Shown here one piece after another: positions 3,396 through 39,320 of a stretch of DNA of 39,320 nucleotides (within the stretch, counting starts at the first letter, position 1; each line of letters begins with the position of its first letter). Made by a program: the position numbers and the translations under genes. The notes beneath the pieces were generated by a model. It did no database searches. It saw only the letters and a list, made by a program, of their open reading frames with translations, and was not told the DNA's origin. The DNA is from Desulfobulbaceae bacterium (GTDB lineage Bacteria; Desulfobacterota; Desulfobulbia; Desulfobulbales; Desulfocapsaceae): positions 1-39,320 of the forward strand of contig WBUQ01000025.1 in NCBI GenBank assembly GCA_008933635.1. The letters run 5' to 3'.

Positions 3396-3513
3396 GGCCG
3401 CACCGAGCAAAAAATCATGGGAAAATACCTCAAATGCGGATTAACTGGGGAGATCTGCATCATCAGAGGCCATAGGAGCGGGGCACCGTTGCTTTTTAAA
3501 AGGTAATATATTG

Positions 3514-5007: not shown

Positions 5008-6215
5008 CGCCCATACCCCCTGCACCTTTTCACCGACGATCGTTCCCGATCCGCTGCCGCCATCTTTTCCCGCTGATCGCGGTCACCGTCCTGCTGCTGG
5101 CCGGCTGTTCCGGCGGCGACCAGAAGGGGAAGAACGGCCCCTCCGGCCGCAAGCCGGCAACCACGGTGACCACCGCTCTCTGCGTCGCCAGGGACGTGCC
5201 GGTCGGCATCGAGGCCACCGGCCGGGTCGAGGCCTCGGCCTCGGCGGAGATCAGGTCGCAGGTCGGCGGCATCCTCGAGACCGTCCACTTCACCGAAGGC
5301 GCGCCGGTGCGGCGGGGGGAGATCCTCTTCACCATCGATCCCCGTCCGTACCAGGCGCAGGTCAAGGCCAGGGAGGCCGCGCTGGCCAGGAACCAGGCCG
5401 AGCTGGCCAACGCCGAGATGGAACTGCAGCGCTACCGCCCTGCCGCCGGCAAGGGATTCGTCTCCCAGGCCCAGGCCGACCAGGCGGCCACCCGGGTCGC
5501 CAGCCTGAAGGCCACCGTCCGGGCCGACGACGCCGCTCTCGAGAGCGCCCGCCTCGACCTGCAGAACTGCAGCCTGAAGGCGCCGTTTGACGGGCTGGCC
5601 GGCGAGATCGCCAGCGATGCCGGCAATCTGGTGAAAGCCAACGCCGACTCCCCGCTGGTGACGATCAACCGCATCGCCCCGGTCGACGTCGCCTTCGACA
5701 TCGCCGGCGAACGGCTGGCCGAGGTGCGGCGGGCCATGGCCGGCAAGCGCCTCGCCGTCTCCGCAGCCATACCCGGCAACGGCAGGATGAGCGTCGACGG
5801 CCGGCTGACGTTCATCGACAACGGCATCGATCCGGCCACCGGCACCATCCGCCTGAAGGCCGAATTCGCCAATGCCGGCCGGGAACTGTGGCCCGGCCAG
5901 CTGACCGCCGTCACCCTGCTGCTCGGCAGCCGCAAGGGCGCCCTGGTGATCCCCAGCCAGGCGGTGCAGATCGGCCAGGACGACTCCCATGTCTTTGTCG
6001 TCAGGGATGACGACACGGTCGAGTACCGCCGGGTCGTCACCGGCATCGCAGCCGGCGGGGAGACGGTGATCGAAGGGGGCCTGGCAGCCGGCGAGCGGGT
6101 GGTGACCGACGGCCACCTGCAGCTGGTCGACGGCGGCGCGATCGAGGATCGCGGGCCCAAACCGGAAGCAGGCAAAACCATGGAAAAACCAGCAGCCAAG
6201 GAAGGCGGCAGATGA
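5004..6215 (+). CDS. RND efflux periplasmic adaptor (membrane fusion protein, lipoprotein)
   Basis: The 403-residue protein is an AcrA/MdtA-type adaptor linking permease and channel. A signal sequence ends in LLAGC (Cys35). The lipoyl half-motifs are GRVEASASAEIRSQVGG-ILETVHFTEGAPVRRGEILFTIDP (shown in two parts) and LKAPFDGLAGEIASDAGNLV, flanking a coiled-coil hairpin (about residues 115-185). Beta-barrel and membrane-proximal parts follow (about 215-380). The C-terminus is a charged Lys/Glu tail. The ATG overlaps the channel gene's stop by 4 bases, and the gene's own stop overlaps the permease start, indicating strong translational coupling. Confidence 0.93.
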   Translation: MTPIPPAPFHRRSFPIRCRHLFPLIAVTVLLLAGCSGGDQKGKNGPSGRKPATTVTTALCVARDVPVGIEATGRVEASASAEIRSQVGGILETVHFTEGAPVRRGEILFTIDPRPYQAQVKAREAALARNQAELANAEMELQRYRPAAGKGFVSQAQADQAATRVASLKATVRADDAALESARLDLQNCSLKAPFDGLAGEIASDAGNLVKANADSPLVTINRIAPVDVAFDIAGERLAEVRRAMAGKRLAVSAAIPGNGRMSVDGRLTFIDNGIDPATGTIRLKAEFANAGRELWPGQLTAVTLLLGSRKGALVIPSQAVQIGQDDSHVFVVRDDDTVEYRRVVTGIAAGGETVIEGGLAAGERVVTDGHLQLVDGGAIEDRGPKPEAGKTMEKPAAKEGGR

Positions 6216-9200
6216 CCGGCGGCATTTCCGACCTCTGCATCCGCCGGCCGGTGATGACCGTGCTGGTGATGGTGTCGATCATGCTCTCCGGCCTGATCGG
6301 CTACCGTCTGCTGCCGGTCGCCGACCTGCCCAACGTCGATTTCCCGACCATCCAGGTCAGCGCCTCGCTGCCCGGCGCCAGCCCGGAGACCATGGCCTCG
6401 ACGGTGGCGACCATCCTCGAGAAGGAGTTCTCGGCGATCGCCGGCATCGACTCGATGAACTCGGTCAGCTCCACCGGCCGGGTCCAGATCACCATCCAGT
6501 TCGCCCTCGACCGCGATATCGACGCCGCCGCCCAGGACATCCAGACCGCCATCGCCCGGACGGTCTCCCGCCTGCCCGACGACATGCCGTCGCCGCCGTC
6601 TTTCCGCAAGATCAACCCGGCCGCGATCCCGATCATGTTCATCGCCCTGACCAGCCCCTCGGTGCCGATGCCGGTCCTCGACCGTTACGCCCAGACCATG
6701 AGCGAGCGCCTGTCGATGCTCGGCGGCGTCGCCCAGGTGACGATCCGCGGGACCCAGAAATATGCGGTGCGGGTCCTGCTCGACCCGGACGCAATGCAGG
6801 CCTTCGACCTCGACCCGGACCAGGTGGCCGGGGCGATCAACGCCCAGAACGTCAACGTGCCGATGGGCCAGCTGAGCGGGCCGCACCAGAAACTGACGCT
6901 CAAGGCCGACGGCCAGCTCACCTCGGCCGAACAGTACCGCCGGATCGTGGTGGCGGTGCGCAACGACCGGGCGGTGCGGCTGGAGCAGGTCGCGGAGGTC
7001 ATCGACGGCATCGAGAACGACGAGGACGGGGCCTGGATGTACACCGCCCGCGACCGCGCCAATGCCATCTTCCTCGCCGTCCAGAAGCAGCCGGGCAGCA
7101 ATACCCTCGAGGTCGCCGGCACGGTCAAGGCCCTGTTCCCGGGATTCCGGGAGAACCTGCCGGACGCGGTGCGGATGACCCTGCTGCGCGATGCCAGCAA
7201 ATCGATCGCCGCCTCGGTGGAGGATGTCCAGTTCACCCTGATCCTCACGCTGGTCCTGGTGGTGCTGGTGATCTTCCTGTTCATCCGCAACCTCTCGTCG
7301 ACGATCATCCCCAGCCTGTCGCTGCCGATGTCGATCTTCGGCACCTTCGCGGTGATGTACCTGCTCGACTACTCTATCGACACCATCTCGCTGATGGCCC
7401 TGACCCTGTCGGTCGGCTTCGTCGTCGACGACGCCATCGTCATGCTCGAGAACATCGTCCGCCACCTGGAGATGGGCAAGAGCCGGATGCAGGCGGCGAT
7501 CGACGGCGCCCGGGAGGTCGGCTTCACCATCGTCTCGATGACGGTCTCGCTGGCGGCCATCTTCATCCCGCTGCTCTTTCTCGGCGGCATCCTCGGCCGG
7601 CTGTTCCGCGAGTTCTCGGTGACGATTGCCGTTGCGGTGCTGGTCAGCTGCGTCATCAGCCTGACGCTGACGCCGATGCTCGGCAGCCGCTTCCTCCGCG
7701 AGCAGCATCAGGTCCGTCACGGCCGCCTCTACCGGGCCAGCGAGCGGTGGTATCTGTGGTCGCTGGCGGTCTACGAGCGCAGCCTGCGCTTCGTCCTCCG
7801 CCACCGCCTGGCGACGATGGTCTTCTCGCTGGCCGTCCTGATCGCCACCGTCCAGCTGTTCCGGGTCGTGCCGAAGGGCTTCATCCCCTCCGAGGACCGC
7901 GACTTCATCAGCATCTCCACCGAAACCGCCCAGGACATCTCCTGGCCGTCGCTGCTGGCGCACATGCAGGACCTGGCGGAGATCGTCCGCCGCGACCCCA
8001 GTGTCGAGCGGTTCATGATGAGCGTCGACGACAGCGGCACGATGATGGTCACCCTCAAACCGCGATCCGAAAGGGAACTGAGCGCCGACGAGGTGATCGC
8101 CGGCCTGCGGCCGAAGCTGAACGCGGTGCCCGGCATCCGGGCGATGCTGGTCAACCCGCCGCCGATCAATGTCGGCGGCCGGCGGGCCCGCAGCCTCTAC
8201 CAGCTGACCCTGCAGGCCGTCGACACCGACCGGCTGTACCGGACGGCCCAGGAGCTCGAGCGGCAGATGCGGCAACTGCCGGCGATCACCGACGTGTCCA
8301 GCGACCTGCAGCTGAAGAACTCCGAGCTGCAGGTCGCCATCGACCGCGACCGGGCCCTGCTGCTCGGGGTCTCGCCACGGCAGATCGAACGCAGCCTCTA
8401 CGACTTCTACGGCGGCCGCTCGGTTTCGACGATCTACGCCCCGAATGACCAGTACGATGTCATCATGGAGGTCAAGCCGCAGTACCAGGACGATGCCGGC
8501 GACCTCGCCAGAATCCGCATCCGCTCGGCCGCAGGCAGCCTGGTGCCGCTGACCGCGGTGGTCGACATGCGCCGGGGCCTGGGGCCGCTGACCATCAACC
8601 ACTCCGGCCAGCTGCCCTCGGTGACCCTCTCCTTCAACGTCCGGCCGGGCGTCTCGCTCGGCGAGGCGGTGGACAGCCTCGAGGCGCTGACCGCCGCGCT
8701 GCCGGACGGAATCCAGTCGACCTTCCAGGGCAGCGCCAAGCAGTTCCAGGACTCCCAGGCGGCGATGGGCTGGCTGCTGCTGCTGTCGATCGTCGTCATC
8801 TACATCGTCCTCGGCATCCTCTACGAGAGCTTCATCCACCCGCTGACCATCCTCACCGCCCTGCCGTTTGCCGGATTCGGGGCCCTGGTGACCCTGATGC
8901 TGTTTAGGACCGAGCTGACCATCTACGCCTTCGTCGGCATCATCATGCTGGTCGGCCTGGTCAAGAAGAACGGCATCATGATGATCGACTTCGCCGTCGC
9001 CGCCCGGGAGGAGGGCAGGGATGCCGAGGAGGCGATCCTCTCCGCCTGCCTGATCCGTTTCCGGCCGATCATGATGACCACCGTGTCGGCGCTGATGGCC
9101 GGCATCCCGATCGCCATCGGCTATGGTGCCGGCGGCGAGTCGCGCCAGCCGCTGGGCCTGGCGGTGGTCGGCGGCCTGCTCTTCTCCCAGACCCTGACCC

Positions 9201-9283
9201 TCTATGTCACGCCGGTGTTCTACCTGTACATGGACAGGCTGCAGCAGTGGCTGGGCCGGAGAGGAGCCGGGTGGGCGGGCTGA
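6212..9283 (+). CDS. RND efflux permease, HAE1 (AcrB/MdtB-like) family
   Basis: The 1,023-residue product has the family length and its two-fold pattern of one helix, a large periplasmic loop and five to six helices. The proton-relay residues are present: Asp406-Asp407 in GFVVDDAIVMLEN (helix 4) and Lys918/919 in LVGLVKKNGIMMIDFA (helix 10). The N-terminus (ISDLCIRRPVMTVLVMVSIM) and the loop motif YGYGAG/ESRQPLG-like region near the C-terminus are typical of MdtB/MdtC-like permeases. It acts as a homotrimer in the inner membrane, exporting hydrophobic compounds by proton antiport. The ATGA overlap with the adaptor fixes the start. Confidence 0.95.
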   Translation: MTGGISDLCIRRPVMTVLVMVSIMLSGLIGYRLLPVADLPNVDFPTIQVSASLPGASPETMASTVATILEKEFSAIAGIDSMNSVSSTGRVQITIQFALDRDIDAAAQDIQTAIARTVSRLPDDMPSPPSFRKINPAAIPIMFIALTSPSVPMPVLDRYAQTMSERLSMLGGVAQVTIRGTQKYAVRVLLDPDAMQAFDLDPDQVAGAINAQNVNVPMGQLSGPHQKLTLKADGQLTSAEQYRRIVVAVRNDRAVRLEQVAEVIDGIENDEDGAWMYTARDRANAIFLAVQKQPGSNTLEVAGTVKALFPGFRENLPDAVRMTLLRDASKSIAASVEDVQFTLILTLVLVVLVIFLFIRNLSSTIIPSLSLPMSIFGTFAVMYLLDYSIDTISLMALTLSVGFVVDDAIVMLENIVRHLEMGKSRMQAAIDGAREVGFTIVSMTVSLAAIFIPLLFLGGILGRLFREFSVTIAVAVLVSCVISLTLTPMLGSRFLREQHQVRHGRLYRASERWYLWSLAVYERSLRFVLRHRLATMVFSLAVLIATVQLFRVVPKGFIPSEDRDFISISTETAQDISWPSLLAHMQDLAEIVRRDPSVERFMMSVDDSGTMMVTLKPRSERELSADEVIAGLRPKLNAVPGIRAMLVNPPPINVGGRRARSLYQLTLQAVDTDRLYRTAQELERQMRQLPAITDVSSDLQLKNSELQVAIDRDRALLLGVSPRQIERSLYDFYGGRSVSTIYAPNDQYDVIMEVKPQYQDDAGDLARIRIRSAAGSLVPLTAVVDMRRGLGPLTINHSGQLPSVTLSFNVRPGVSLGEAVDSLEALTAALPDGIQSTFQGSAKQFQDSQAAMGWLLLLSIVVIYIVLGILYESFIHPLTILTALPFAGFGALVTLMLFRTELTIYAFVGIIMLVGLVKKNGIMMIDFAVAAREEGRDAEEAILSACLIRFRPIMMTTVSALMAGIPIAIGYGAGGESRQPLGLAVVGGLLFSQTLTLYVTPVFYLYMDRLQQWLGRRGAGWAG

Positions 9284-9493: not shown

Positions 9494-12400
9494 ATGATCT
9501 GTCCGGACTGTCGCCTGGAGCTGCCGCACGGCTCCCGGTTCTGCAAGGAGTGCGGCCGAAAGCTCGACCTTCTCTGCAGCCGCTGCGGCAGCACTGTTCC
9601 CGCCGACAGCAAATTCTGCCTCGGCTGCGGCCAGGACCTGCGCCAACCCCGGGAACACCCGCCCATCGACTACCAGCAGCCCCGCTCCTACACCCCGAAA
9701 CACCTGGCCGACCGAATCCTTACCACGCGCAGCGCCATCGAGGGGGAACGCAAATTCGTCACCATCCTCTTCGCCGACGTCGCCGATTCGACGGCGATAT
9801 TCGCCAGATTCGACCCGGAAGTAGTCCATGAGATCATGGACGGCTGCTTCCGCATCCTCCTCGACTGCATCCACCACTACGAAGGCTCGATCAACCAGTT
9901 CACCGGCGACGGGGTGATGGCCCTGTTCGGCGCGCCCATCGCCCATGAAGACCATGCCCAGCGCGCCTGCCATGCGGCCCTGGCGATCCGCGAGGCGCTC
10001 GGCCCGTACCGCAGGCTGCTGCAGGAGAAGTACGGGATCGATTTCACGATGCGGATCGGCCTGCACTCCGGCCCGGTGGTGGTGGCGGCAATCGGCGACG
10101 ACCTGCGGATGGACTACACGGCGCAGGGGGATACGGCCAACCTGGCGTCCCGGATGGAGGTCAGCGCCGGGCCCGGCGAGATCCTGGCCTCGAGCCAGAC
10201 CTACCGGCTCTCCCGCGACTTCTTCGTCTTTGCGCCGGAGGAGATGCTGCAGGTCAAGGGCAGGACGATGCCGGTTCCCGCTTATCGCCTGCTGCGGGCG
10301 GCGGAGGTGCAGACCCGGATCGGCGCTTCGACCGCCCGCGGCCTGACCCGCTTTGTCGGCCGGGGACGCGAGCTGGAGACGCTCAGGGAGGCCTTTGCCG
10401 CCGTCGTTGCCGGCGAAGGCCAGGTGGTGGGGATCGTCGGCGAGGCCGGAGTGGGCAAGTCCAGGCTGCTGCTGGAATTCCGCCGGAGCCTGCCGGCCGG
10501 TGAAGCCGCGTGGCTGGAAGGACATTGCCTGCACTACGGCGGGGCGATGCCCTACCTGCCGGTTCTGGAGGTCATCCGCGCCTTTTTCGGCTTCAAGGAC
10601 GGAGAAGGCGAGCAGATTATCCGCGAGAAGCTGCGGCAGCGGATCACGGACCTCGACGCCGACCTCCTCCACGCCCTCCCCCCATTCCTGGACCTGCTGT
10701 CGATCGAAGCGGCCGACGACGCCTTCAGCCGGATGGAGCCGCAGCAGAAACGCAAGGTGACCTTCGAGGCGATCCGCGACCTGCTGATCCGCGCCAGCCA
10801 GGACCAGCCGCTGGTCGTGGTGGTCGAAGACCTGCACTGGATCGACCGGACGACCCAGGAGCTGCTGGACTACATGATCCACTGGCTGCCCCGCAACCGC
10901 ATCCTCCTGATCCTGCTCTACCGCCCCGAGTACACCCACCCCTGGGGCAGCAGATCCTATTACCGGATGGTCGGCCTCAACCAGCTGTCTTCCTCCAACA
11001 GCGCCGACCTGGTGGACGCCATTCTCGAAGGGGGCGATGTGGTGCCCGAACTGCGGGAGCTGATCCTCAGTCGCACCTCCGGCAACCCGCTGTTCATGGA
11101 GGAACTGACCCGCTCGCTGCTGGAGAGCGGGTCCATCGAGAAACGGGAGGATCACTTCGTCCTCCGCCGGGACGTAGCCGGCATAGAAGTCCCGGACACC
11201 ATCCACGGCATCATCGCGGCGCGCATGGACCGACTGGAAGAGAGCCTCAAGCGGATCATGCAGGTGGCCTCCGTCATCGGCCGGGAGTTCGCCTTCCGGA
11301 TCCTCGAGACCATCGCCGGGGTCAAGGAGGGCCTCAAGTCCCAGCTGATCAACCTGCAGGGCCTGGAATTCATCTACGAGAAGGGGCTGTTTCCGGAGCT
11401 GGAATACATCTTCCGCCACGCCCTGGTGCAGGAGGTGGCCTACAACAGCCTGCTGGTGTCCAGGCGCAGGGAGATCCACGAGAAGATCAGCCGGGCCATC
11501 GAACAACTGTACCCCGGGCGGCTCGAGGAGTTCTGCGAGGTGCTCGGCTACCACTATTCGCTGGGCGGCAATCTGGCGAAGGCCTACGAGTACCTGAAGC
11601 GTTCCGCGAAAAAGGCCATCCGCAACAACTCGCTGCTGGAAGGCACCCAGGTTTACCGGCAGGCGGCAGAAATCCTTGCGAAAATGCCGCAGACCGACGA
11701 GAACAGGCGCGAGCTGATCGACCTGGTGCTGTCGATGCGCGGCCCGATGTTCCGGGTCGGCGACGCCGTCGAGTATCTCCCCCTGCTGCAGAACGCCGAG
11801 AAACTCGCGGAAGAACTCGGCGATATCACGAGGAAACTGCAGATCCGCAGCGCGCTGGGGGTGTACTACATCTACCGCGGCGGCAACCCGCAGCTGGGCT
11901 GGCGCTATCTGGAGGACTGCTTCGACCGGGAGGACATCATGCACGACGTCTCGCTGATGGTCCCGATCGGCTTCGACCTCTGCACCTCGAGCCTGCTGTC
12001 GGGGGACTGGCAGCGGGTGAACCGGATCGCCCCGATCATCATCAGCCTGATCGAACGCTCCCGGACCCAGGACAGTCTTTTCGACCGGAATGCCAGCATC
12101 CACATCAGCATCATCGCCCACCTGGCCATCAGCACCATCGGCTGCGGCGACGTCGTTCGCGGTGGTCAGCTGCTGGACAAGGCCTTCGCCCTGGCCTCCG
12201 AGACCGACAATCTGGCGTCGAGGGCGTACGTCGAATGGGCCCGCGGCGTCATGCTCTGCTTCCTCGATGCACAGAGGGCGATCGGTCAGATGGAGCAGGC
12301 GATCCGCTATCTGTCGGATTCCCAGAACCTGTTGCTGCAGGGGGTCAGCTGGTGCTGGCTGGGCTATGCCCACTGCATGAATGACAAAGCCGGCGACGGT

Positions 12401-12862
12401 CTCGGCCTCATCGAGAAGGGACTCAGGATGCATACCGACCTGGGGGTTCCGTACTGGCTCTCGTTCTGCCACTTCTTCTCCAGCACCGCCCATTTCGAAC
12501 TGGGTGACATGGCCAAGGCCCGCGAGGATGCCGAACTCGCCCTGCAGTGCGCCCTGAACAACGACGAGAAACAGGTTCAGGGACTGACACGGGCCTGGCT
12601 GGGCCGGGTGCTGGCCGCCACCGGACAACGGCAGCCGGGGGAGGCAGAGGATATGCTGCTGCAGGGGATCCGGCAACTCCAGGACCTGGAGATCCTGACC
12701 CAGGAGGCGATGTGCACCATGTGGCTGGGGGAACTCCACGCGGAGATCGGCCAGCCGGATCGGGCGATGCAGGTGCTGAACAGTGCCGAAGCCATGTTCC
12801 GGGACCTGCAGATGATCCACTGGCAGCGGCGTACGGCCCGGGCCATGGAAAGGCTGGCCTGA
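9494..12862 (+). CDS. Zinc-ribbon / class III nucleotide cyclase / AAA ATPase / TPR signalling protein
   Basis: This 1,122-residue multidomain protein starts with a double zinc ribbon (Cys3, 6, 17, 20 and Cys28, 31, 42, 45). A class III adenylate/guanylate cyclase domain follows (about 85-270) with Lys87 in ERKFVTILFADV, metal-binding Asp95 and Asp139 (FTGDG), and the QGDTANLASR segment carrying the transition-state Asn and Arg. An ATPase of the AAA_16/STAND type comes next: Walker A GEAGVGKS at 316-323, Walker B LVVVVEDLHWID ending near 451. The C-terminal half is helical and TPR-like. All cyclase catalytic residues appear intact, so cAMP (or cGMP) synthesis gated by the ATPase/TPR sensor is likely. 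It is a soluble cytosolic protein. GGGGGGACC precedes the ATG, and the gene stands alone. Confidence 0.92.
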   Translation: MICPDCRLELPHGSRFCKECGRKLDLLCSRCGSTVPADSKFCLGCGQDLRQPREHPPIDYQQPRSYTPKHLADRILTTRSAIEGERKFVTILFADVADSTAIFARFDPEVVHEIMDGCFRILLDCIHHYEGSINQFTGDGVMALFGAPIAHEDHAQRACHAALAIREALGPYRRLLQEKYGIDFTMRIGLHSGPVVVAAIGDDLRMDYTAQGDTANLASRMEVSAGPGEILASSQTYRLSRDFFVFAPEEMLQVKGRTMPVPAYRLLRAAEVQTRIGASTARGLTRFVGRGRELETLREAFAAVVAGEGQVVGIVGEAGVGKSRLLLEFRRSLPAGEAAWLEGHCLHYGGAMPYLPVLEVIRAFFGFKDGEGEQIIREKLRQRITDLDADLLHALPPFLDLLSIEAADDAFSRMEPQQKRKVTFEAIRDLLIRASQDQPLVVVVEDLHWIDRTTQELLDYMIHWLPRNRILLILLYRPEYTHPWGSRSYYRMVGLNQLSSSNSADLVDAILEGGDVVPELRELILSRTSGNPLFMEELTRSLLESGSIEKREDHFVLRRDVAGIEVPDTIHGIIAARMDRLEESLKRIMQVASVIGREFAFRILETIAGVKEGLKSQLINLQGLEFIYEKGLFPELEYIFRHALVQEVAYNSLLVSRRREIHEKISRAIEQLYPGRLEEFCEVLGYHYSLGGNLAKAYEYLKRSAKKAIRNNSLLEGTQVYRQAAEILAKMPQTDENRRELIDLVLSMRGPMFRVGDAVEYLPLLQNAEKLAEELGDITRKLQIRSALGVYYIYRGGNPQLGWRYLEDCFDREDIMHDVSLMVPIGFDLCTSSLLSGDWQRVNRIAPIIISLIERSRTQDSLFDRNASIHISIIAHLAISTIGCGDVVRGGQLLDKAFALASETDNLASRAYVEWARGVMLCFLDAQRAIGQMEQAIRYLSDSQNLLLQGVSWCWLGYAHCMNDKAGDGLGLIEKGLRMHTDLGVPYWLSFCHFFSSTAHFELGDMAKAREDAELALQCALNNDEKQVQGLTRAWLGRVLAATGQRQPGEAEDMLLQGIRQLQDLEILTQEAMCTMWLGELHAEIGQPDRAMQVLNSAEAMFRDLQMIHWQRRTARAMERLA

Positions 12863-31137: not shown

Positions 31138-31812
31138 ATGAAGACTCCTGACACGCCATCCAGGTTCCCGGACAATTTCTCCAAGGCGATGATTTTCCTC
31201 CTGGCGGCACTGTTCCTGGGAGTGGCCCTTGCCGTGCCGTTCTATTACGAAACGCAGACGATGTGGTACAAGACCGGTGCCGACAGGATCATGCTCCGGG
31301 CCGGGCAGATGGCGGGCCTGTTCGCCCTTGTCCTGCTGACGGGGCAACTCCTGCTTGCTTCGCGAGTGGGGCTTTTTGAACATCTCTACGGACGCACACG
31401 TCTGCTGCGCTGGCACCAGGCCAACGGGGTGATTATCTTCTGCGCCGTCTGCAGCCATGTGCTTCTGGTACTGGCCCCCGAAGGGTTCGACAACCTGCCG
31501 ATCGGCAAAAAATACTGGCCTGAGATGATCGGCGGGGTGCTCTTCCTCCTGCTCTTCGTCATGGTGGTCACCTCCCGTTTCCGATCGTGGTTCGGCCTGG
31601 AATATGCACGATGGCGAATGCTGCATAAACCGCTGGGCTACCTCTGTCTTGTGCTCGCCTTTCTCCATGTGCGCTTTGTCAGTGAATCGTTTGCCCGGGG
31701 ATTGCCGAGAACGGTGCTGATCGCCGTCGGTATTGGCCTGGCGCTGTTCATCGGCCTTGTGCAGGTGCTGCGGCGGACCCCGGGAAGAGCACAAAGCGGC
31801 CCGCAGCCCTGA
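31138..31812 (+). CDS. Ferric reductase-like transmembrane protein (bis-heme, no flavin domain)
   Basis: The 224-residue protein has five to six membrane helices. Four histidines, His93 (RWHQANG), His107 (CSHVLL), His163 (MLHKPLGYL) and His177 (AFLHVRF), are spaced in two pairs of 14, the b-heme ligand pattern of the ferric reductase-like/NOX core. The FAD and NAD domains of full ferric reductases are absent, so electrons must come from a partner. GGGGAGAGACG precedes the ATG. It may start the following cluster or be independent; a hairpin lies across its stop codon. Confidence 0.85.
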   Translation: MKTPDTPSRFPDNFSKAMIFLLAALFLGVALAVPFYYETQTMWYKTGADRIMLRAGQMAGLFALVLLTGQLLLASRVGLFEHLYGRTRLLRWHQANGVIIFCAVCSHVLLVLAPEGFDNLPIGKKYWPEMIGGVLFLLLFVMVVTSRFRSWFGLEYARWRMLHKPLGYLCLVLAFLHVRFVSESFARGLPRTVLIAVGIGLALFIGLVQVLRRTPGRAQSGPQP

Positions 31813-31821
31813 CTGCGGGCC
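31798..31821 (+). terminator. 9-bp hairpin spanning the stop codon
   Basis: GGCCCGCAG (31798-31806) pairs perfectly with CTGCGGGCC (31813-31821) around CCCTGA. The stop codon of the ferric reductase-like gene is in the loop. No U-tract follows. It may attenuate read-through into the next genes. Confidence 0.4.
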
Positions 31822-31833
31822 TCCCTGGCATGC

Positions 31834-31843
31834 AGGAGGTGAT
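31834..31843 (+). promoter_or_regulatory. Perfect Shine-Dalgarno at an alternative start
   Basis: AGGAGGTGAT pairs fully with the 16S tail and abuts an ATG at 31844, in frame with the phosphatase gene. A second site, AAGGAG at 31886-31891, serves the ATG at 31898. The two tandem sites could give two isoforms or regulate initiation. Confidence 0.5.
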
Positions 31844-31897
31844 ATGTACAGTATTCACGGCAAAAACGGCATCCCTCCGGCCCGCAAGGAGATACCC

Positions 31898-32686
31898 ATG
31901 ACAGCCTCGTCCTCGCACCCCCTCTGCCCGCAACGCCTGCCCCTCGCCGGGGCCGTCAATTTCCGCGACCTCGGCGGCTACCGGACCGGTGATGGCCGCC
32001 AGGTGAAGCGCGGCCTGGTCTTTCGCTCCGATCATCTGTCCCGCCTGACTGCGGAGGATCAACGGATGCTGCAGCGTCTCCGGCTGAGGACGGTCTGCGA
32101 TCTGCGCACCGCCCTGGAGCAGCGGCGGAATCCCAACCTCCTGCCGCAGGATGGTTCGATCCGCCTGCTCCCCCTGCCGGTCCAGGCGGGGAACTTCGAC
32201 CCGGCCCTGGTCATGGACCGCCTGCGGGCCGGAGAACGCGACTGGCTGACCCTCGATTTCTTCATCGACGTGTACCGGCAGTATCTCGACGATTGCGGTC
32301 CGGTCTGGGGCAGGGTATTGCGGCTCATTGCCGCTCCCGCGAATCTGCCCCTGGTCTTCCACTGCACCGGCGGCAAGGATCGCACCGGGATCTGTGCGAC
32401 CCTGCTGCTGCTGACCCTGGGGGTGGGGGAGGCCGACATCTTCCTCGACCATGAGCGCTCCAACGCTTGCAATGCCGAGCGCCTGCAACCGATCTACGCC
32501 CGGTTCGCCGACCTGGGCATCGGGCCTGAGCAGGCCGCCCCCTACCTGCAGGCCCCCCGGGAGCCCCTGGCCGCGATGCTGGCGCATCTGCACAGATCCT
32601 ACGGCACGGTCGACAACTACCTGTTGTCCAGGACCGGGCTGGATCAGGAGACCATCGTGGCCCTGCGGACAAACCTGCTCGAATGA
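31898..32686 (+). CDS. Tyrosine phosphatase-like protein (Y_phosphatase3 family)
   Basis: The 262-residue protein has the VNFRDLGGY signature (20-28), RSDHLSRLT, and the P-loop HCTGGKDRTG with nucleophile Cys156 and Arg162. This family includes protein-tyrosine and lipid or small-molecule phosphatases. I choose the ATG at 31898, with AAGGAG six bases away. An in-frame ATG at 31844 has a perfect but close AGGAGGTGAT and would add 18 residues. Its stop overlaps the start of the CDP-alcohol phosphatidyltransferase gene (ATGA), so a role on a phospholipid or phosphorylated intermediate is plausible but inferred. Confidence 0.87.
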   Translation: MTASSSHPLCPQRLPLAGAVNFRDLGGYRTGDGRQVKRGLVFRSDHLSRLTAEDQRMLQRLRLRTVCDLRTALEQRRNPNLLPQDGSIRLLPLPVQAGNFDPALVMDRLRAGERDWLTLDFFIDVYRQYLDDCGPVWGRVLRLIAAPANLPLVFHCTGGKDRTGICATLLLLTLGVGEADIFLDHERSNACNAERLQPIYARFADLGIGPEQAAPYLQAPREPLAAMLAHLHRSYGTVDNYLLSRTGLDQETIVALRTNLLE

Positions 32687-33909
32687 CACCCTCATCCACC
32701 CCTGCCGGCCAGAACGACAATGCCCCGGCCCGGCGAGCGCCGGCTAGGGTGCCGTGGCCCCTGCGCCGGCAGGCGTGGCTGGCCGCAGCCCTTTTGTTCG
32801 GTCCCTGGCTGGCGACCCTTTTCCTCTGCAGCACCCATCTCCCCCCGCACCCCCTCGCCGTCTCGCTGCTGTTGCCGGGACTCATCGCGGCCATCTATCT
32901 GCAGCTGCGGCTGGCATCCCATCTGGGCGCCAATCACCGGTGCGGCGAAGCGGACCGGCTCTTCCCCACCCTGGGGATCGCCAACTGGATCACCCTGCTG
33001 CGCGGCGCGGCGGTCGTCGCCCTGGCCGGTTTCCTGCCCGTGGCCGTCCTTCCGGTTGCGGCGCGGCCGGCACCCCTGGCCTGGGCGCCGGGACTGATCT
33101 ACCTGGGCATCTCACTGGCCGATCTGCTGGACGGTTTTGTCGCCCGCAGGCAGCACCGGCAGACCGAACTCGGCCAGCGCCTGGATATCGAGACCGACGC
33201 CGCGGGACTGCTGGCGGCCCTACTGGTGGCCGTCAGCCTTGACCGGCTGCCTGCATTCACCCTGCCGGTGGGGCTGGCCTATTACCTCTTTCTCTTCGGC
33301 ATCCGGTGGCGCCGGCAGCGGCACCTGCCCCTGGTCGCGCTGCAACCGCGGCCCTCTTCGCGGATCATCGCCGGCTTCCAGATGGGAGTGGTGGCCGCGG
33401 CGCTGCTGCCCCTCTTCGATCCGCCCTTCACCTCCATCGCCGCCGCTCTCGTGATGGCGCCGCTCCTCGCAGGCTTTGGCCGGGACTGGCTGGTGGTTTC
33501 CTGCCGGCTGCATGTTGACGGCAACCAGCGCACTGCCCTGGATCGCTGGGCAGGCCTGGTTCTGGCCCGTCATCTTCCCCTGCTGCTGCGCCCGTTCCTC
33601 CTGGCCGGCGGCATCCTGCTTCAGGGCGCCGTATCCGTTCCGCATCCAGCCTGGCTGTGGGCACAGGGCATCTGCTGCCTGCTGGCCGGAGCCGGCTGGA
33701 TGGGCCGCTCTGCAGCGCTGCTGCTCGCCCTGCTGTTGAGTTGCGGTCTGGCCCCTTACGGGACCGGACTTCCGGTGCTGGTCCTTTTCGGCCTCGCCAC
33801 CGCCCTGATGCTCACCGGCACCGGCCCGCTGTCCCTCTGGTCCCCGGAAGAGGCAATCCTCTATCGCCGCAGCCGGGACGGAGCCCCGGCAGGGAGCGAG
33901 AAGACATGA
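32683..33909 (+). CDS. CDP-alcohol phosphatidyltransferase with long membrane C-terminus
   Basis: The 408-residue membrane protein contains the complete CDP-alcohol phosphotransferase motif: Asp147, Asp150-Gly151, Ala154-Arg155, Gly164, Asp168 and Asp172. It is preceded by the typical LGIANWITLLRGAA segment. The enzyme exchanges CMP of a CDP-linked donor for an alcohol acceptor at the membrane. Common members are about 200 residues; here roughly 230 additional residues with several helices follow the motif, and about 90 precede it. The ATGA overlap with the phosphatase gene and another with the next gene show tight coupling. The acceptor alcohol is unknown. Confidence 0.9.
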   Translation: MTPSSTPAGQNDNAPARRAPARVPWPLRRQAWLAAALLFGPWLATLFLCSTHLPPHPLAVSLLLPGLIAAIYLQLRLASHLGANHRCGEADRLFPTLGIANWITLLRGAAVVALAGFLPVAVLPVAARPAPLAWAPGLIYLGISLADLLDGFVARRQHRQTELGQRLDIETDAAGLLAALLVAVSLDRLPAFTLPVGLAYYLFLFGIRWRRQRHLPLVALQPRPSSRIIAGFQMGVVAAALLPLFDPPFTSIAAALVMAPLLAGFGRDWLVVSCRLHVDGNQRTALDRWAGLVLARHLPLLLRPFLLAGGILLQGAVSVPHPAWLWAQGICCLLAGAGWMGRSAALLLALLLSCGLAPYGTGLPVLVLFGLATALMLTGTGPLSLWSPEEAILYRRSRDGAPAGSEKT

Positions 33910-34970
33910 TCGGGCGTGCCGCATCATCTGCTGCGGGCTTTCTCAGCCCGCGCATCGGCTGGCGCGGACTGCTGCTGATTGCCGGCCTGGCCCTCGCCTG
34001 GCTGGCGTTGCACGGGATGCCTTGGGAACAGGCGTGGGGACAGGTGACCGGGATGGGTATCGGCGCCCTCCTGAGCGTGCTGGGGCTCAATCTGGCGATG
34101 CTGCCGCTGATGACCCTCCGCTGGTGGCAGCTCCTGCGGGCGCTGGCCGCGCCGGTCAGCCTGCGCACAGTCTGCGCCTATCGCCTGGCCGGCAACGCCA
34201 TCAGCTACCTCACCCCAGGGCCCCATTTCGGCGGCGAGCCGCTGCAGGTCTATCTCCTGCGCCACCGTCAGGACATACCGCTGCCTGCAGCCGCGATCTC
34301 GGTCGCCCTGGAGCGGCTGCTCGAGCTCTGGGCCAGCATGGTGGTCCTGGGTTCCAGCCTGATCGTGCTGACGGTTGCGGGCAGCGGGCCCTTTGCCGGG
34401 AGATGGGCACTTCCCCTGGCTGTCGCCCTGGCGGCCGCCGTCGCCGCTCTGCTGGCTGCCCTGTGCATGGGCAAACGCTCCCTCTCCCGCGCCTGCTCCT
34501 GGTTGATGCGGTTCTGCGGCATGGCCCATCGCCCGCCCACCGGTTTCGCCGGACGACTGCTGGATGGTCTCATCCAGGCCGAGATCCTGAGCGAATCCCT
34601 GCTGCGCCGGCACCGGCGGGCGTTCCTGCTGGCCAACCTCTGTTCCCTTGGCCACTGGCTCGGGGTCTTCGCCGAATTCTGGCTGATGGCGATCCTGCTG
34701 GGACATCCGCTGTCGTTGCCGCAACTGCTGACAGTCGTCATCGCCGCCCGCCTGGCCTTTCTCGCCCCCCTGCCGGCAGGTCTCGGCGTTCTCGAATCGA
34801 CCCTGCCCTGGACAACCGCCGCCCTGGGCCTGGGGAGCGTCCCAGGTCTCAGCCTCTGCCTGCTGATCCGGGTCCGCGACATCCTCTTCAGCCTGGCCGG
34901 CCTGGGATTGACCATGAAATATTTGACTTGTCCGGACAGGGCCGGTACTCTGGCTAAAGATGCAGGATGA
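33906..34970 (+). CDS. LPG-synthase-type membrane (flippase-like) protein
   Basis: The 354-residue protein has about eight membrane helices and the LPG_synthase_TM / AglD-like (UPF0104) motifs: LAGNAISYLTPGPHFGGEPLQVYLL, given here only in part as NAISYLTPG and GGEPLQ, then VALERLLEL, and the C-terminal APLPAGLGVLESTLPW. Members are proposed flippases or membrane parts of lipid-modifying enzymes; this one lacks the aminoacyl-transfer domain of MprF. The ATG at 33906 overlaps the preceding stop. Paired with a CDP-alcohol phosphatidyltransferase it suggests synthesis and translocation of a special lipid. Confidence 0.87.
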   Translation: MIGRAASSAAGFLSPRIGWRGLLLIAGLALAWLALHGMPWEQAWGQVTGMGIGALLSVLGLNLAMLPLMTLRWWQLLRALAAPVSLRTVCAYRLAGNAISYLTPGPHFGGEPLQVYLLRHRQDIPLPAAAISVALERLLELWASMVVLGSSLIVLTVAGSGPFAGRWALPLAVALAAAVAALLAALCMGKRSLSRACSWLMRFCGMAHRPPTGFAGRLLDGLIQAEILSESLLRRHRRAFLLANLCSLGHWLGVFAEFWLMAILLGHPLSLPQLLTVVIAARLAFLAPLPAGLGVLESTLPWTTAALGLGSVPGLSLCLLIRVRDILFSLAGLGLTMKYLTCPDRAGTLAKDAG

Positions 34971-35105
34971 CAGGACTCGGGCGAAGGGCGTATCTCCGCT
35001 GAACCGTCCGGGGCCAGGCCGTTTCTCTCTGCGCGCCCGCACTGTGTTCCGGTGCGGCTCGGTGCATCCACCGTCCCCTTGCAAGGAGGGCAATCTCGAC
35101 ACACC

Positions 35106-35876
35106 ATGCTGCGTCAAGATCCCCGTCCCCCCATATCCGGCACCAGCGCCAGCAAGGTCGACCCGGAGCAATGGTTCGACCAGTTGCCGACTCTGGCCGC
35201 ACAGTTCCTGGCCGAGCACCGCCGGCCGCTGGTGACGGTTTCCTATGCCCAGAGCGTGGACGGCAGCATCGCCACCCGGAACCGGGAACAGCTCCGGCTG
35301 AGTGGCCACCAGTCGATGGTGGTCACCCATCGCATCCGCGCCGCCTGCGACGCCATCGTCATCGGCATCAACACCCTGCTGATCGACGACCCCCTGCTCA
35401 CCGTCCGTCTCGCCGAAGGGCCCAACCCCCAGCCCATCGTCCTTGACAGCCACCTGCGCATCCCCCTGCAGGCCCGCCTGCTTGAACGGACCGACCTTGG
35501 CTGCTGGGTCGCCTGTACAGAAAAGGGGGATCCCGGGCGCATCGGCGCGGTGGAAAACCGGGGCGCCGAGGTCATCCGCTGCCGCCACGACCGTCAGGGC
35601 CGGGTGGACCTGCCGCATCTGCTCCAGCAGCTTGGCGAGAGAGGGATCTGCAGCCTCATGGTCGAAGGGGGCGGCCAGGTGATTTCGAGCTTCATCGAGG
35701 CGCGCTTGGCGGATCAGATGATCATCACCATCGCCCCACGTCTGGTTGGCGGCCTGCCGGTGCTGGACCGGCCGGCCGTGCGCAACGGGGCCCTGCTGCA
35801 CCTGACCACCGTGACCTACCAGCCCTGCGAACCGGACCTCATTCTCTGGGCCCGGCCGCAATGGCAGGACCCATGA
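35106..35876 (+). CDS. RibD C-terminal-type reductase
   Basis: The 256-residue protein matches the RibD reductase/dihydrofolate reductase fold: VTVSYAQSVDGSIATRN (44-60), the cofactor segment DAIVIGINTLLIDDPLLTVR (82-101), SLMVEGGGQVISSF and IAPRLVGG. In riboflavin synthesis this family reduces a ribosylamino-pyrimidine phosphate with NADPH. The deaminase domain is absent and no other riboflavin gene is near, so it probably reduces a related pyrimidine or pterin precursor. The ATG at 35106 is chosen; AAGGAGG lies rather far upstream (15 bases), and a GTG at 35052 is an alternative. Its stop overlaps the next start (ATGA). The 135-base gap before it has no recognised FMN riboswitch. Confidence 0.88.
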   Translation: MLRQDPRPPISGTSASKVDPEQWFDQLPTLAAQFLAEHRRPLVTVSYAQSVDGSIATRNREQLRLSGHQSMVVTHRIRAACDAIVIGINTLLIDDPLLTVRLAEGPNPQPIVLDSHLRIPLQARLLERTDLGCWVACTEKGDPGRIGAVENRGAEVIRCRHDRQGRVDLPHLLQQLGERGICSLMVEGGGQVISSFIEARLADQMIITIAPRLVGGLPVLDRPAVRNGALLHLTTVTYQPCEPDLILWARPQWQDP

Positions 35877-36907
35877 TGCGGCACCGGCTGGAATTTCTCG
35901 CCCCCGGCCGGGTCGCGGTGCGCGAGGGTCCGGCACCGCAGCCGGCTTTGGACCAGGTGCTGGTGCAGACCCGCTTCTCCGCGATCAGTCCCGGAACCGA
36001 GATGCTGGTGTACCGTGGGCAGTGGCCGCAGGGGGTCACGGTCGACGCCACCCTGGAGAGCCTGGCAGGCACCTTTGCCTATCCCCTGGCCTACGGCTAC
36101 TGCACGGTCGGCCGGGTGATCGCGGCAGGACCGGCGGTGGCCGGCGACTGGCCGGGTCGCCGGGTCTTCGCCTTCCATCCCCATGAAGACCTCTTCTGCG
36201 CCCGACCCTCGCTTCTGCACCCCATCCCCGATGACCTGGACGACGAGACCGCCCTCTTTCTTCCCAACATGGAGACCGCGGTCAACCTGATGCTGGATGG
36301 CGCGCCCCTGATCGGCGAACGGGTGGTCGTCATCGGCCAGGGCATCGTCGGGCTGCTCGCCACCGCCCTGCTCGCCCGTTTTCCGCTGGCGTCCCTCACC
36401 ACCCTCGAATCGCACCCTCTGCGGCGCACCGCCTCGCTCCGCCTCGGCGCCTCCCAGTGCCTCGATCCTGCAGATCCGGACCTTGACAACCTGCTGGGCG
36501 CCATTCCCTGCCAGGGCGGCCAGGCGGATCTGGTCTTTGAGCTTTCCGGCAACCCGGCAGGCCTGGACACGGCGCTGGCGGCGACGCGCCCCAGCGGCCG
36601 GGTGGTGATCGGCTCCTGGTACGGCAGCAAAAAGGCCGACCTGGATCTCGGCTCTTTCTTCCATCGCGGCCGTCTCACCCTGATCAGTTCCCAGGTGAGC
36701 GGCATCGCCCCCGCGCTCTGGGGCCGGTGGCAGGCCCATCGCCGCCTGGAGGTGGCCTGGGAGATGCTGCGCCAGGTGCAGCCCCGGACCTGCATCACCC
36801 ACCGCTTCGCCCTGGCGGATGCCGCCGAGGCCTATGCGCTGATTGACCGCTGCCCAGGCGAGACCATCCAGGTCATCTTCGAACACCCTTCCGCGCACGC
36901 GCGGTGA
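35873..36907 (+). CDS. MDR (zinc-type alcohol dehydrogenase-like) oxidoreductase lacking zinc ligands
   Basis: The 344-residue protein has the medium-chain dehydrogenase layout: an N-terminal GroES-like domain with SAISPGTEMLVYRG (36-49), a Rossmann motif VVIGQGIVG (152-160), and FELSGNPAGLDTAL. The catalytic Cys of the usual CGTD and the His of GHE are replaced (SPGTE and YGYCTVG), and the four-Cys structural zinc loop is missing. The overall pattern resembles BchC-like and sorbitol dehydrogenase-like zinc-free members. It is an NAD(P)-dependent oxidoreductase of unknown substrate. The start at 35873 overlaps the RibD-like stop. Confidence 0.87.
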   Translation: MMRHRLEFLAPGRVAVREGPAPQPALDQVLVQTRFSAISPGTEMLVYRGQWPQGVTVDATLESLAGTFAYPLAYGYCTVGRVIAAGPAVAGDWPGRRVFAFHPHEDLFCARPSLLHPIPDDLDDETALFLPNMETAVNLMLDGAPLIGERVVVIGQGIVGLLATALLARFPLASLTTLESHPLRRTASLRLGASQCLDPADPDLDNLLGAIPCQGGQADLVFELSGNPAGLDTALAATRPSGRVVIGSWYGSKKADLDLGSFFHRGRLTLISSQVSGIAPALWGRWQAHRRLEVAWEMLRQVQPRTCITHRFALADAAEAYALIDRCPGETIQVIFEHPSAHAR

Positions 36908-36928: not shown

Positions 36929-37306
36929 ATGTACAGTCTCGGGATGCGGCGGGAGTTCAGCGCCCGGCATTATCTGATCGGCGGCGACTGGGGTGCGGAA
37001 AACAGCGAGCATGCCCATCGCTATCGGCTGGAGCTGGTCCTCGAGGCCCCGAACCTGGACCGGCACGGCTACCTGGTCGATATCGTCGAGGTGGAACAGC
37101 ACCTGGCGGCGGTGATCGCCGACTTTGCCGGCCGCACCCTCAACGACCTCTCCGACTTTGCCGGCCAGAACCCCAGCATCGAACGGCTGGCCACCATCCT
37201 CCATGGCGCCTTCAGGGCACGCTTCGTCCATCTCCGGCTCGAGGCCCTGACCGTCACCCTCTGGGAGGATGACATCGCCTGGACCTCCTACCGGGCGCCC
37301 CTCTGA
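36929..37306 (+). CDS. 6-pyruvoyl-tetrahydropterin synthase/QueD-fold protein with altered active site
   Basis: The 125-residue protein has the T-fold pattern of PTPS/QueD. Zinc ligands are His14 (FSARHYL), His28 and His30 (HAHRYRLE). The pterin-anchoring Glu113 (VTLWED) and the NPSIERLA segment are present. The catalytic Cys of CxxxHGH is Glu24 here, HGH reads HAH, and the Asp-His pair usually before LN is Ala67-Gly68. A Cys-to-Glu change is known in PTPS-III enzymes that cleave dihydroneopterin triphosphate, but the lost Asp-His goes further. It should still bind zinc and a pterin; the reaction is uncertain. AAGGAGCCACAAC precedes the ATG. The stop overlaps the glycosyltransferase start by one base. 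Confidence 0.85.
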   Translation: MYSLGMRREFSARHYLIGGDWGAENSEHAHRYRLELVLEAPNLDRHGYLVDIVEVEQHLAAVIADFAGRTLNDLSDFAGQNPSIERLATILHGAFRARFVHLRLEALTVTLWEDDIAWTSYRAPL

Positions 37307-38436
37307 TGCGCATCGGCCTGGTCATCTACGGCAGCCTGGAGACCCTGACCGGCGGCTACCTCTATGACCGGATCGCGGTCGAAGGCCTGGAGCGGCTGGG
37401 CCATGAGGTGGAGGTGATCGGTCTCGCCGGCGGCCCGTATCTCTCCCGGCTCGGGCATGGCTTGACGCCCGGCCTCTGCCGGCGGCTGCTGGACGGCCGG
37501 TTCGACATCCTTCTGCAGGACGAACTCTGCCATCCCTCACTTTTCTGGCTGAACCGCCGCCTGCGCCACCTGCACGGGCCGCCGCTGGTCGCCATCGTCC
37601 ATCACCTGATGTGCCGGGAACCGCGGCCCCGGTGGCTCAACCGGCTCCTGGAACTGGTTGAGCGGCGGTACCTGGCCTCGGTGGATGGCTTCATCTTCAA
37701 CTCGAAGACCACCGCCAGGACGGTAACGGCACTGGTGGGCGAGGCTCAGCCCCATGTCGTCGCCTACCCGGCCGGAGACCGGTTCGGTATCCCCCTCTCC
37801 CCTGACAGCATCAGCCAGAGAGCCCGCCGGCCAGGGCCTCTGCAGTTGCTCTTTCTGGGCAGCGTCATCCCCCGGAAAGGCCTGCTGCCCCTGCTCGGCG
37901 CCCTGGCCGGAGCAGACCGCGAGCTCTGGCGGCTGACCGTGGTGGGCAGCCTCGAATTCGACCCCGCCCATGCCGCCGCGGTCCGTGAACGGGTCGATGA
38001 GCTTGGGCTGGCCGACGCGGTCCGGTTCGTCGGCCCGTGCTCGGGTGAGAACCTGGTGGAGATCATGTCCGCCAGCCACCTGTTCTGCATGCCTTATGCC
38101 TATGAGGGGTTCGGCATCGCCATTCTTGAGGGCATGGCCTTTGGCCTGCCGGCCATCGGCTGCCGGGACGGTGCGGCCAACGAGACCATCGAGCACGGGA
38201 GCAACGGCTTTCTGCTGGCGGCCGACGACCTGGTGGGACTGGCGCCGCTTGTGGTGCGCCTGCAGCACGATCGCGAGGCCCTGCTGCGGCTTTCCCTTGC
38301 CGCCCGCCAGACCTGTGCCGGCCGTCCCGGCTGGCAGGACAGCGTGGCCGTAATAAACGCCTTTCTGGCGGAGATGCAGAGCGGACACGCACAGGCAAAA
38401 ACCGTCGCGCCGGGGAGTGGCCATGGAGGCGGATAA
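37306..38436 (+). CDS. Family 4 glycosyltransferase
   Basis: The 376-residue GT-B enzyme has an N-terminal GGYLYDRIAVEGLERLGHEVEV segment (only GGYLYDR and GHEVEV quoted as key parts), the donor-domain start LFLGSVIPRKGL, and the EX7E motif from Glu267 to Glu275 (EGFGIAILE), followed by GLPAIGCRDGAANE and GSNGFLL. It transfers a sugar from a nucleotide-sugar with retention. It is coupled to the PTPS homologue by a TGATG overlap, which recalls cyanobacterial pteridine glycosyltransferases. The acceptor may be the pterin-like product or a lipid; this is inference. Confidence 0.91.
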   Translation: MRIGLVIYGSLETLTGGYLYDRIAVEGLERLGHEVEVIGLAGGPYLSRLGHGLTPGLCRRLLDGRFDILLQDELCHPSLFWLNRRLRHLHGPPLVAIVHHLMCREPRPRWLNRLLELVERRYLASVDGFIFNSKTTARTVTALVGEAQPHVVAYPAGDRFGIPLSPDSISQRARRPGPLQLLFLGSVIPRKGLLPLLGALAGADRELWRLTVVGSLEFDPAHAAAVRERVDELGLADAVRFVGPCSGENLVEIMSASHLFCMPYAYEGFGIAILEGMAFGLPAIGCRDGAANETIEHGSNGFLLAADDLVGLAPLVVRLQHDREALLRLSLAARQTCAGRPGWQDSVAVINAFLAEMQSGHAQAKTVAPGSGHGGG

Positions 38437-39320
38437 TCTGGCCGGTGGCAGGCCGGCTCCCAAGGTGGCGGACGACTCCGGGACCGGTTTCGATCCCCGC
38501 TACCTGGCCGCCAAGAAATCCATCGATGACCGGGCCTTGAATCGCCATGTCTGGGCCGCGCTCCGCCAGGCCCTGCCGCAGGCGACCGGCGCTGCCCCCG
38601 CAAGCATCGTCGAGGTCGGCGCCGGCATCGGCACCATGCTGGCGAGAACGGTCGACTGGGGGTTGCTGAGCGGACCGGCGACCTACCTGGCCACCGACTG
38701 CGATGCCGGCCATCTCCGCCTCGCCCGGCGCTACCTTGGAGCCTGGGCCGAAGAACGGGGCCATACGCTGAATTGGCCGGAAAGGCAGCGCGGCCTCCTG
38801 TGCACCGCACAGGCCGAGATGGCCGTGGTTCTCGAGGCGGTCCGGGCCGAAGAGATGGCCTGCCGGGCCGAATCCGCAGGCACCTTCCACCTGCTCATCG
38901 CCCACGCCGTGCTGGACCTGATCGACCTGCCGGCCGTACTGCCGGGCCTCCTGTCGCTGCTCACCGACCACGGGCTGGCCTATCTCACCTGCAACTTCGA
39001 CGGCACCACCCTCTTTCTGCCCGAACACCCTGGCGGGGAAGAACAGGAAATCCTGAGGCGCTACCATGCCTCCATGGAGGCGCGGCATGCCGGGGCAAGC
39101 CGCACCGGCCGGCGGCTGCTGACCATGCTGCAGGGTCCGGGTTGCGAACTTGTGGCGGCCGGCGGATCGGACTGGGTCATCCACCCCCGGGACCATGCCT
39201 ACACCGAAGATGAAGCGCTGTTTCTCCATGCCCTCGTCGCAGGGGTGGAGCAGGAACTTGCCAGCAACAGCGGCCCCGCGCCGCCGGGCCTTGCCGCCTG
39301 GGCCCGCAGCCGGCACCGGC
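38423..39320 (+). CDS. SAM-dependent methyltransferase (runs off the right end)
   Basis: A frame from the ATG at 38423 stays open to the end of the window (299 codons), so the 3' end is missing. The N-terminus FDPRYLAAKKSIDDRALNRHVW and SIVEVGAGIGTML (SAM-binding GAGIG at 66-70) mark a class I methyltransferase. Later come ATDCDAGHLRLARRY and LIAHAVLDLIDL. The start overlaps the glycosyltransferase end by 14 bases, and the last codons of that gene contain GGAGTGG as a ribosome site. It probably methylates an intermediate of this cluster. A different frame (38773-39213) is a shadow. Confidence 0.88.
   Translation, partial: MEADNLAGGRPAPKVADDSGTGFDPRYLAAKKSIDDRALNRHVWAALRQALPQATGAAPASIVEVGAGIGTMLARTVDWGLLSGPATYLATDCDAGHLRLARRYLGAWAEERGHTLNWPERQRGLLCTAQAEMAVVLEAVRAEEMACRAESAGTFHLLIAHAVLDLIDLPAVLPGLLSLLTDHGLAYLTCNFDGTTLFLPEHPGGEEQEILRRYHASMEARHAGASRTGRRLLTMLQGPGCELVAAGGSDWVIHPRDHAYTEDEALFLHALVAGVEQELASNSGPAPPGLAAWARSRHR

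Follow-up and report, generated by a model that had tools for sequence, protein, structure and literature searches.

A QueD-fold protein with glutamate at the catalytic cysteine position is one of a large subfamily encoded in a conserved operon

The window analyzed here is the whole stretch of 39,320 bases, which makes up contig C182 in a genome of 4.5 Mb whose nearest relatives are Desulfobulbaceae MAGs. An ORF of 125 amino acids on its plus strand (36929..37306), preceded immediately by an AAGGAG ribosome-binding site, encodes a protein of the PTPS/QueD fold according to Pfam, the ORF list, a structural model and alignments. Its match to the Pfam PTPS family (PF01242) amounted to 77.2 bits (E 1.4e-21; curated cut-off 22.4), while the score against the QueD equivalog TIGR03367 was 40.5 bits and did not reach the cut-off of 89.25. 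The DNA of homologues that are 88-89% identical differed mostly at codon position 3, which indicates a real gene under purifying selection; conservation and this codon-position pattern ruled out a decaying pseudogene or decayed QueD. A phage origin was rejected, since a search of a phage collection at E 1e-5 returned no relative. An ordinary QueD as well as a canonical RibD and RibBA are encoded elsewhere in the same genome.

The genes flanking this ORF on the plus strand overlap or almost touch. Upstream lie a stand-alone RibD_C-type pyrimidine reductase without a deaminase domain (35052..35876, with a real start possibly further downstream; PF01872 at 147 bits, TIGR00227 above cut-off), whose best PDB matches were RibD and 2azn, and, overlapping it, an MDR-type dehydrogenase (35861..36907) called a zinc-binding alcohol dehydrogenase. 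Alignment of homologues of this dehydrogenase revealed that the Cys and GHE zinc-ligand motifs are absent and that SxGTE, PH and SSQV motifs are kept instead; its best NCBIfam match, BchC, remained below cut-off. Downstream, the ATG of a GT4 glycosyltransferase (37306..38436) overlaps the PTPS stop codon (TGATG), and the GT4 gene in turn is overlapped by a class I SAM-dependent methyltransferase-like gene (38417..39319), which is cut by the contig end. The product of the latter had no Pfam match and is named after haloarchaeal homologues so annotated (34-41% identity). The genes from RibD_C to the methyltransferase presumably form one transcription unit. Further upstream on the same strand are ORFs for a ferric-reductase-like transmembrane protein (31138..31812), which is present in a few relatives and whose pathway membership is uncertain, a Y_phosphatase3-type phosphatase (31733..32686) present in the nearest relatives only, a CDP-alcohol phosphatidyltransferase (32683..33909; PF01066, 54 bits) with a DGxxAR...GxxxDxxxD motif and a weak match to PgsA, and an LPG_synthase_TM flippase-like membrane protein (33906..34970; PF03706, 111.5 bits). 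Other parts of the window carry an ordinary RND efflux operon (3511-9283; outer membrane protein, HlyD-type adaptor and AcrB-type pump) and a gene for a large protein combining a zinc ribbon, a guanylate cyclase domain, an AAA ATPase and TPR (9494-12862).

The original prediction held that the PTPS-like protein keeps the zinc- and pterin-binding residues of QueD and lacks its catalytic ones. When the protein was aligned to 16 canonical QueD sequences of its own phylum, this was borne out: His14 (36968-36970), His28 (37010-37012), His30 (37016-37018) and Glu113 (37265-37267) are kept, Glu24 (36998-37000) occupies the position of the CxxxHGH cysteine found in 15 of the 16, and Ala67-Gly68 (37127-37132) replace the Asp-His pair present in all 16. 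The motif thus reads E24-xxx-H28-A-H30 and not CxxxHGH as in PTPS-I. Compared with PTPS-I (QueD), the protein shares the fold, the zinc His triad and the equivalent of Glu113 but differs in the Cys and Asp-His of an enzyme that serves queuosine synthesis and has its separate copy in this genome.

These substitutions were followed in 50 relatives (29 from Desulfobacterota, 14 from Chloroflexota and 7 haloarchaeal). Glu24 and Glu113 were invariant (50/50 each), as were His14, His30, Asp51 and Glu85, and no relative had Asp-His at the aligned catalytic site; in the protein of Chloroflexota locus L107 an Asp-His occurs one residue further on, out of register with the catalytic pair. Of the three replacement residues, only Glu24 is conserved: relatives mostly have Arg, Lys or Gln at position 67 and Gly, Asp or Glu at position 68, so that just the absence of Asp-His is constant. 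Likewise, the change from HGH to HAH is present but without meaning, as position 29 is free to vary. Position 25 is Asn in 41 of the 43 bacterial proteins and Gly in the archaeal ones. Zinc ligand retention, correct for the window protein, did not prove general: His28 is replaced by Asn in 9 of the 14 Chloroflexota relatives, as is often the case among the PTPS genes of L098-L106, with Glu24 and His30 kept, and the complete zinc triad is thus not fixed in the subfamily.

The original prediction had also likened the Cys to Glu replacement to that of PTPS-III, and here it was off by one residue. Both have a Glu instead of the catalytic Cys near the HxH motif, but the PTPS-III motif is ExxHGH (PMC5041015), with Glu at n-3, whereas the window branch has ExxxHxH, with Glu at n-4. 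The window protein has Asn25 at the PTPS-III position, and because Glu24 sits exactly where the Cys was, the substitution is not that of PTPS-III. It is quite improbable that the protein is a QueD or PTPS-III enzyme which has diverged but retains dihydroneopterin triphosphate as its substrate, serving queuosine or folate synthesis by means of Glu24. The shared fold, zinc ligands and ring-binding Glu would be in keeping with such an enzyme, and PTPS-I enzymes reportedly tolerate a relocated active-site residue (Phillips 2012), but Asp-His is missing, the cluster contains no queuosine gene and the Glu does not occupy the PTPS-III position. QueD chemistry in particular is unlikely because the catalytic triad is missing, the score lies far under the QueD cut-off and the genome has an ordinary QueD gene at another place.

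The AlphaFold2 model (pLDDT 93.8) and its superposition placed the protein in the PTPS/QueD (tunnel fold) superfamily, in agreement with the Pfam score. The best PDB match was 3d7j, the Streptomyces protein SCO6650 (Z 18.5, 1.9 A over 125 residues), followed by archaeal, eukaryotic and E. coli PTPS/QueD structures, with a Z of about 16 for E. coli QueD. In a maximum-likelihood tree, which was unrooted, gives no sister group and took in one Chloroflexota sequence, the Desulfobacterota, Chloroflexota and haloarchaeal sequences formed one group apart from both QueD and PTPS-IV with support of 99/98. Judging from these sequence comparisons, the catalytic residues usual in QueD had already given way to others in an ancestor of the window protein and did not simply decay.

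SCO6650, the closest solved structure, bears the FGPAQ signature of PTPS-IV, a published class with PF00925 and PF01872 neighbours (PMC5445326). PTPS-IV resembles the window branch in that Cys and Asp-His are gone and the ring-binding Glu is invariant, and in its neighbours, which include the MDR dehydrogenase, GT4, RibD_C, GTP cyclohydrolase and CDP-alcohol transferase. The two nevertheless differ: PTPS-IV carries FGPAQ and, through Ala30, lacks one of the three His, while the window branch has [WP]GxE[NG] with Glu24 and His30. The structure paper on SCO6650 is said to have found zinc, the catalytic triad and PTPS activity all absent. FGPAQ was found in none of the Desulfobacterota, Chloroflexota and haloarchaeal groups, and the window protein itself reads WGAEN. 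Of the PTPS-IV-type neighbours, RibD_C is encoded in the window, a PF00925 gene is missing from the window cluster itself, and GCH II plus RibD_C lie beside the gene in Chloroflexota loci L095 and L107. The PTPS-IV class has been published, as has part of its neighbourhood, and the window protein is a related variant distinct in its active site. The searchable literature contained no description of the Glu-bearing ExxxHxH branch with its wider gene context; the relevant papers were those on PTPS classification only. Taken together, the groups form a natural series of active sites, with three His accompanied by Cys-Asp-His or by Glu, then Glu accompanied by Asn28, and finally two His accompanied by none of these.

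The gene neighbourhood was conserved as well. Among the loci compared, PTPS was counted 41 times, GT4 38, the dehydrogenase 36 (a count that partly reflects selection of loci via this gene), RibD_C 30, the methyltransferase 29 (plus 6 of another type) and the CDP-alcohol phosphatidyltransferase 21, the last in both domains of life. Five loci (L050-L052, L054 and L062) had been selected via the dehydrogenase, and the PTPS gene is an independent finding there; it was absent from L049 and L063, selected in the same way. Desulfobacterota loci mostly keep the order RibD_C, dehydrogenase, PTPS, GT4 and methyltransferase, with RibD_C and dehydrogenase split off in some. In Chloroflexota, GT4, dehydrogenase and PTPS occur together; four loci also have GCH II, and two have both GCH II and RibD_C. 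Haloarchaeal plasmids carry these three genes with a GCH IIa or creatininase gene (GCH IIa in Haloarcula). PTPS-IV-type proteins were encoded in the same context in Agrobacterium, Allorhizobium, Thiodictyon, Methylosinus and Streptomyces. Frequent companions in this context are flippase-like and LtaS-like proteins, the CDP-alcohol phosphatidyltransferase and GTP cyclohydrolase II/IIa. An LtaS-like protein in which ESYG, SWLAH and GDHQP motifs are conserved is common to Desulfobulbaceae, Thiodictyon and Rhizobiaceae clusters. Orthologous LtaS/EptA-like membrane phosphotransferases are encoded in Desulfobulbaceae (L003, 12493-14091), Thiodictyon (L050, 14885-16687) and Agrobacterium (L054, 4184-5770).

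Recurrence across several phyla ruled out a chance neighbourhood, and the window protein is not one odd protein but has many subfamily relatives whose operon is fixed. Among the homologues in the same context, none had the Cys or the Asp-His of QueD at the corresponding alignment positions. Together with the pattern in the 50 homologues and the QueD encoded elsewhere, this lends good support to the predicted different reaction or binding role. One locus (L064) encodes a photolyase-related protein (PF04244, 3913-5475) about 3.5 kb from the PTPS homologue; the antenna pigment product that it suggested was set aside, as the photolyase gene is not among the recurrent families.

A second RibD_C gene was present in all 21 genomes with a window-type PTPS, with the second copy above 120 bits in 20. 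Among 30 control genomes a second RibD_C turned up in 5, and just one of these was strong. Desulfobacterota clusters contain no GTP cyclohydrolase gene, while GCH II adjoins the cluster genes in Chloroflexota, Agrobacterium and Streptomyces. The GCH II of the Streptomyces clusters (L051 14593-15252 and L058 14232-14897) carries Met at a position that is Tyr in the other GCH II sequences, and it is adjoined by a creatininase-family gene, which in the clusters read was confined to those of Streptomyces and one of Haloarcula. SCO6655, a GCH II with the same Met, makes a formylated intermediate for which a deformylase would then be needed. The Met in Streptomyces and the restriction of the creatininase gene to these clusters and the one of Haloarcula would be as expected if they start from such an intermediate. 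This gene content fits a scheme in which all clusters would meet at 2,5-diamino-6-ribosylamino-pyrimidinone phosphate. The archaeal/fungal type riboflavin branch (GCH IIa, ArfB, ArfC) is similar in that GCH IIa, a creatininase family protein and a RibD_C-type reductase occur in the clusters, but these continue with dehydrogenase, PTPS, GT4 and methyltransferase and not with lumazine/riboflavin synthase.

Haloarchaea and Streptomyces make F420, and this was counted in favor of a role of the window protein in the synthesis of that cofactor. Such a role has been stated, as unpublished, for PTPS-IV (PMC5041015), but the statement does not concern the window branch. CofH over cut-off was detected in none of the 21 genomes with a window-type PTPS, whereas the same search detected it in three control genomes, and F420 synthesis is accordingly disfavored as a highly improbable reading.

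The explanation we consider best, with a probability of roughly 60%, is that the window protein acts in an uncharacterised GTP-derived pathway that proceeds via a ribitylaminopyrimidine keeping its 2-amino group and that serves neither queuosine, folate nor F420 synthesis. The fold, the pattern of residues, the subfamily, the operon and the co-occurrence were observed, whereas the substrate, step order, catalysis and product are our inference. A GTP cyclohydrolase would convert GTP to 2,5-diamino-6-ribosylamino-4(3H)-pyrimidinone 5'-phosphate; this activity may come from the GCH II of the cell's RibBA in the window genome and, for other clusters, from a GCH II or GCH IIa of their own. The stand-alone RibD_C reductase would turn the ribosylamino into the ribityl compound, which would retain the 2-amino group because a deaminase is absent. 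The MDR dehydrogenase and the PTPS-like protein may then act on the 2-amino-4-oxo pyrimidine or a pteridine made from it, and GT4 and the methyltransferase would decorate the resulting compound. Glu113 is predicted to anchor the 2-amino-4-oxo ring, and Glu24, at the old Cys position and adjoining a zinc held by His14/28/30, would be a new acid/base.

Several observations speak against this pathway. Desulfobacterota clusters lack their own GTP cyclohydrolase, co-occurrence is no proof of a single pathway, PTPS-IV proteins occur in the same context without Glu24 and His30, and many Chloroflexota proteins have Asn28. The PTPS-IV losses and Asn28 imply that not all members need the zinc, nor do all need Glu24, and they favor a binding or structural role at least in those proteins. 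It is possible, if on the unlikely side, that the window protein too is a scaffold that holds a pterin-like intermediate for the dehydrogenase, GT4 or methyltransferase without performing chemistry. Besides the losses just named, the disappearance of Asp-His throughout the subfamily and a ring-binding Glu113 invariant across all groups would agree with pure binding, but a mere binder has no obvious need for an acid at the catalytic position, where Glu24 is fixed, nor for invariant His14 and His30. As far as residue conservation can tell, the invariance of Glu24 thus argues for chemistry, while its absence from PTPS-IV, together with the existence of Asn28 proteins, argues against a universal zinc-and-Glu mechanism.

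An extension of the GTP-derived pathway, which we regard as doubtful, is that the product would be a lipid-linked, glycosylated ribityl-pterin that works as a redox cofactor in the membrane together with the b-type cytochromes encoded nearby, and that the reaction of the Glu24 protein would be new to the superfamily. The CDP-alcohol phosphatidyltransferase might take the ribityl 5'-phosphate as its polyol phosphate acceptor, and the product might be flipped by the LPG-type protein and passed on by the LtaS-like phosphotransferase.

The gene set common to sulfate reducers, Chloroflexota, haloarchaea, proteobacteria and Streptomyces appears to convert GTP to a pterin-like product. The plasmid homologues are annotated as 6-carboxytetrahydropterin synthase with a queuosine GO term, a label that arose by automatic transfer of QueD-type annotation and that the present data contradict. 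For PTPS-IV, the structure is known and the function is not agreed; the operon that it has in common with the Glu-bearing branch, present in bacteria and archaea alike, makes the pathway concretely testable and supplies the natural series of active sites described above.
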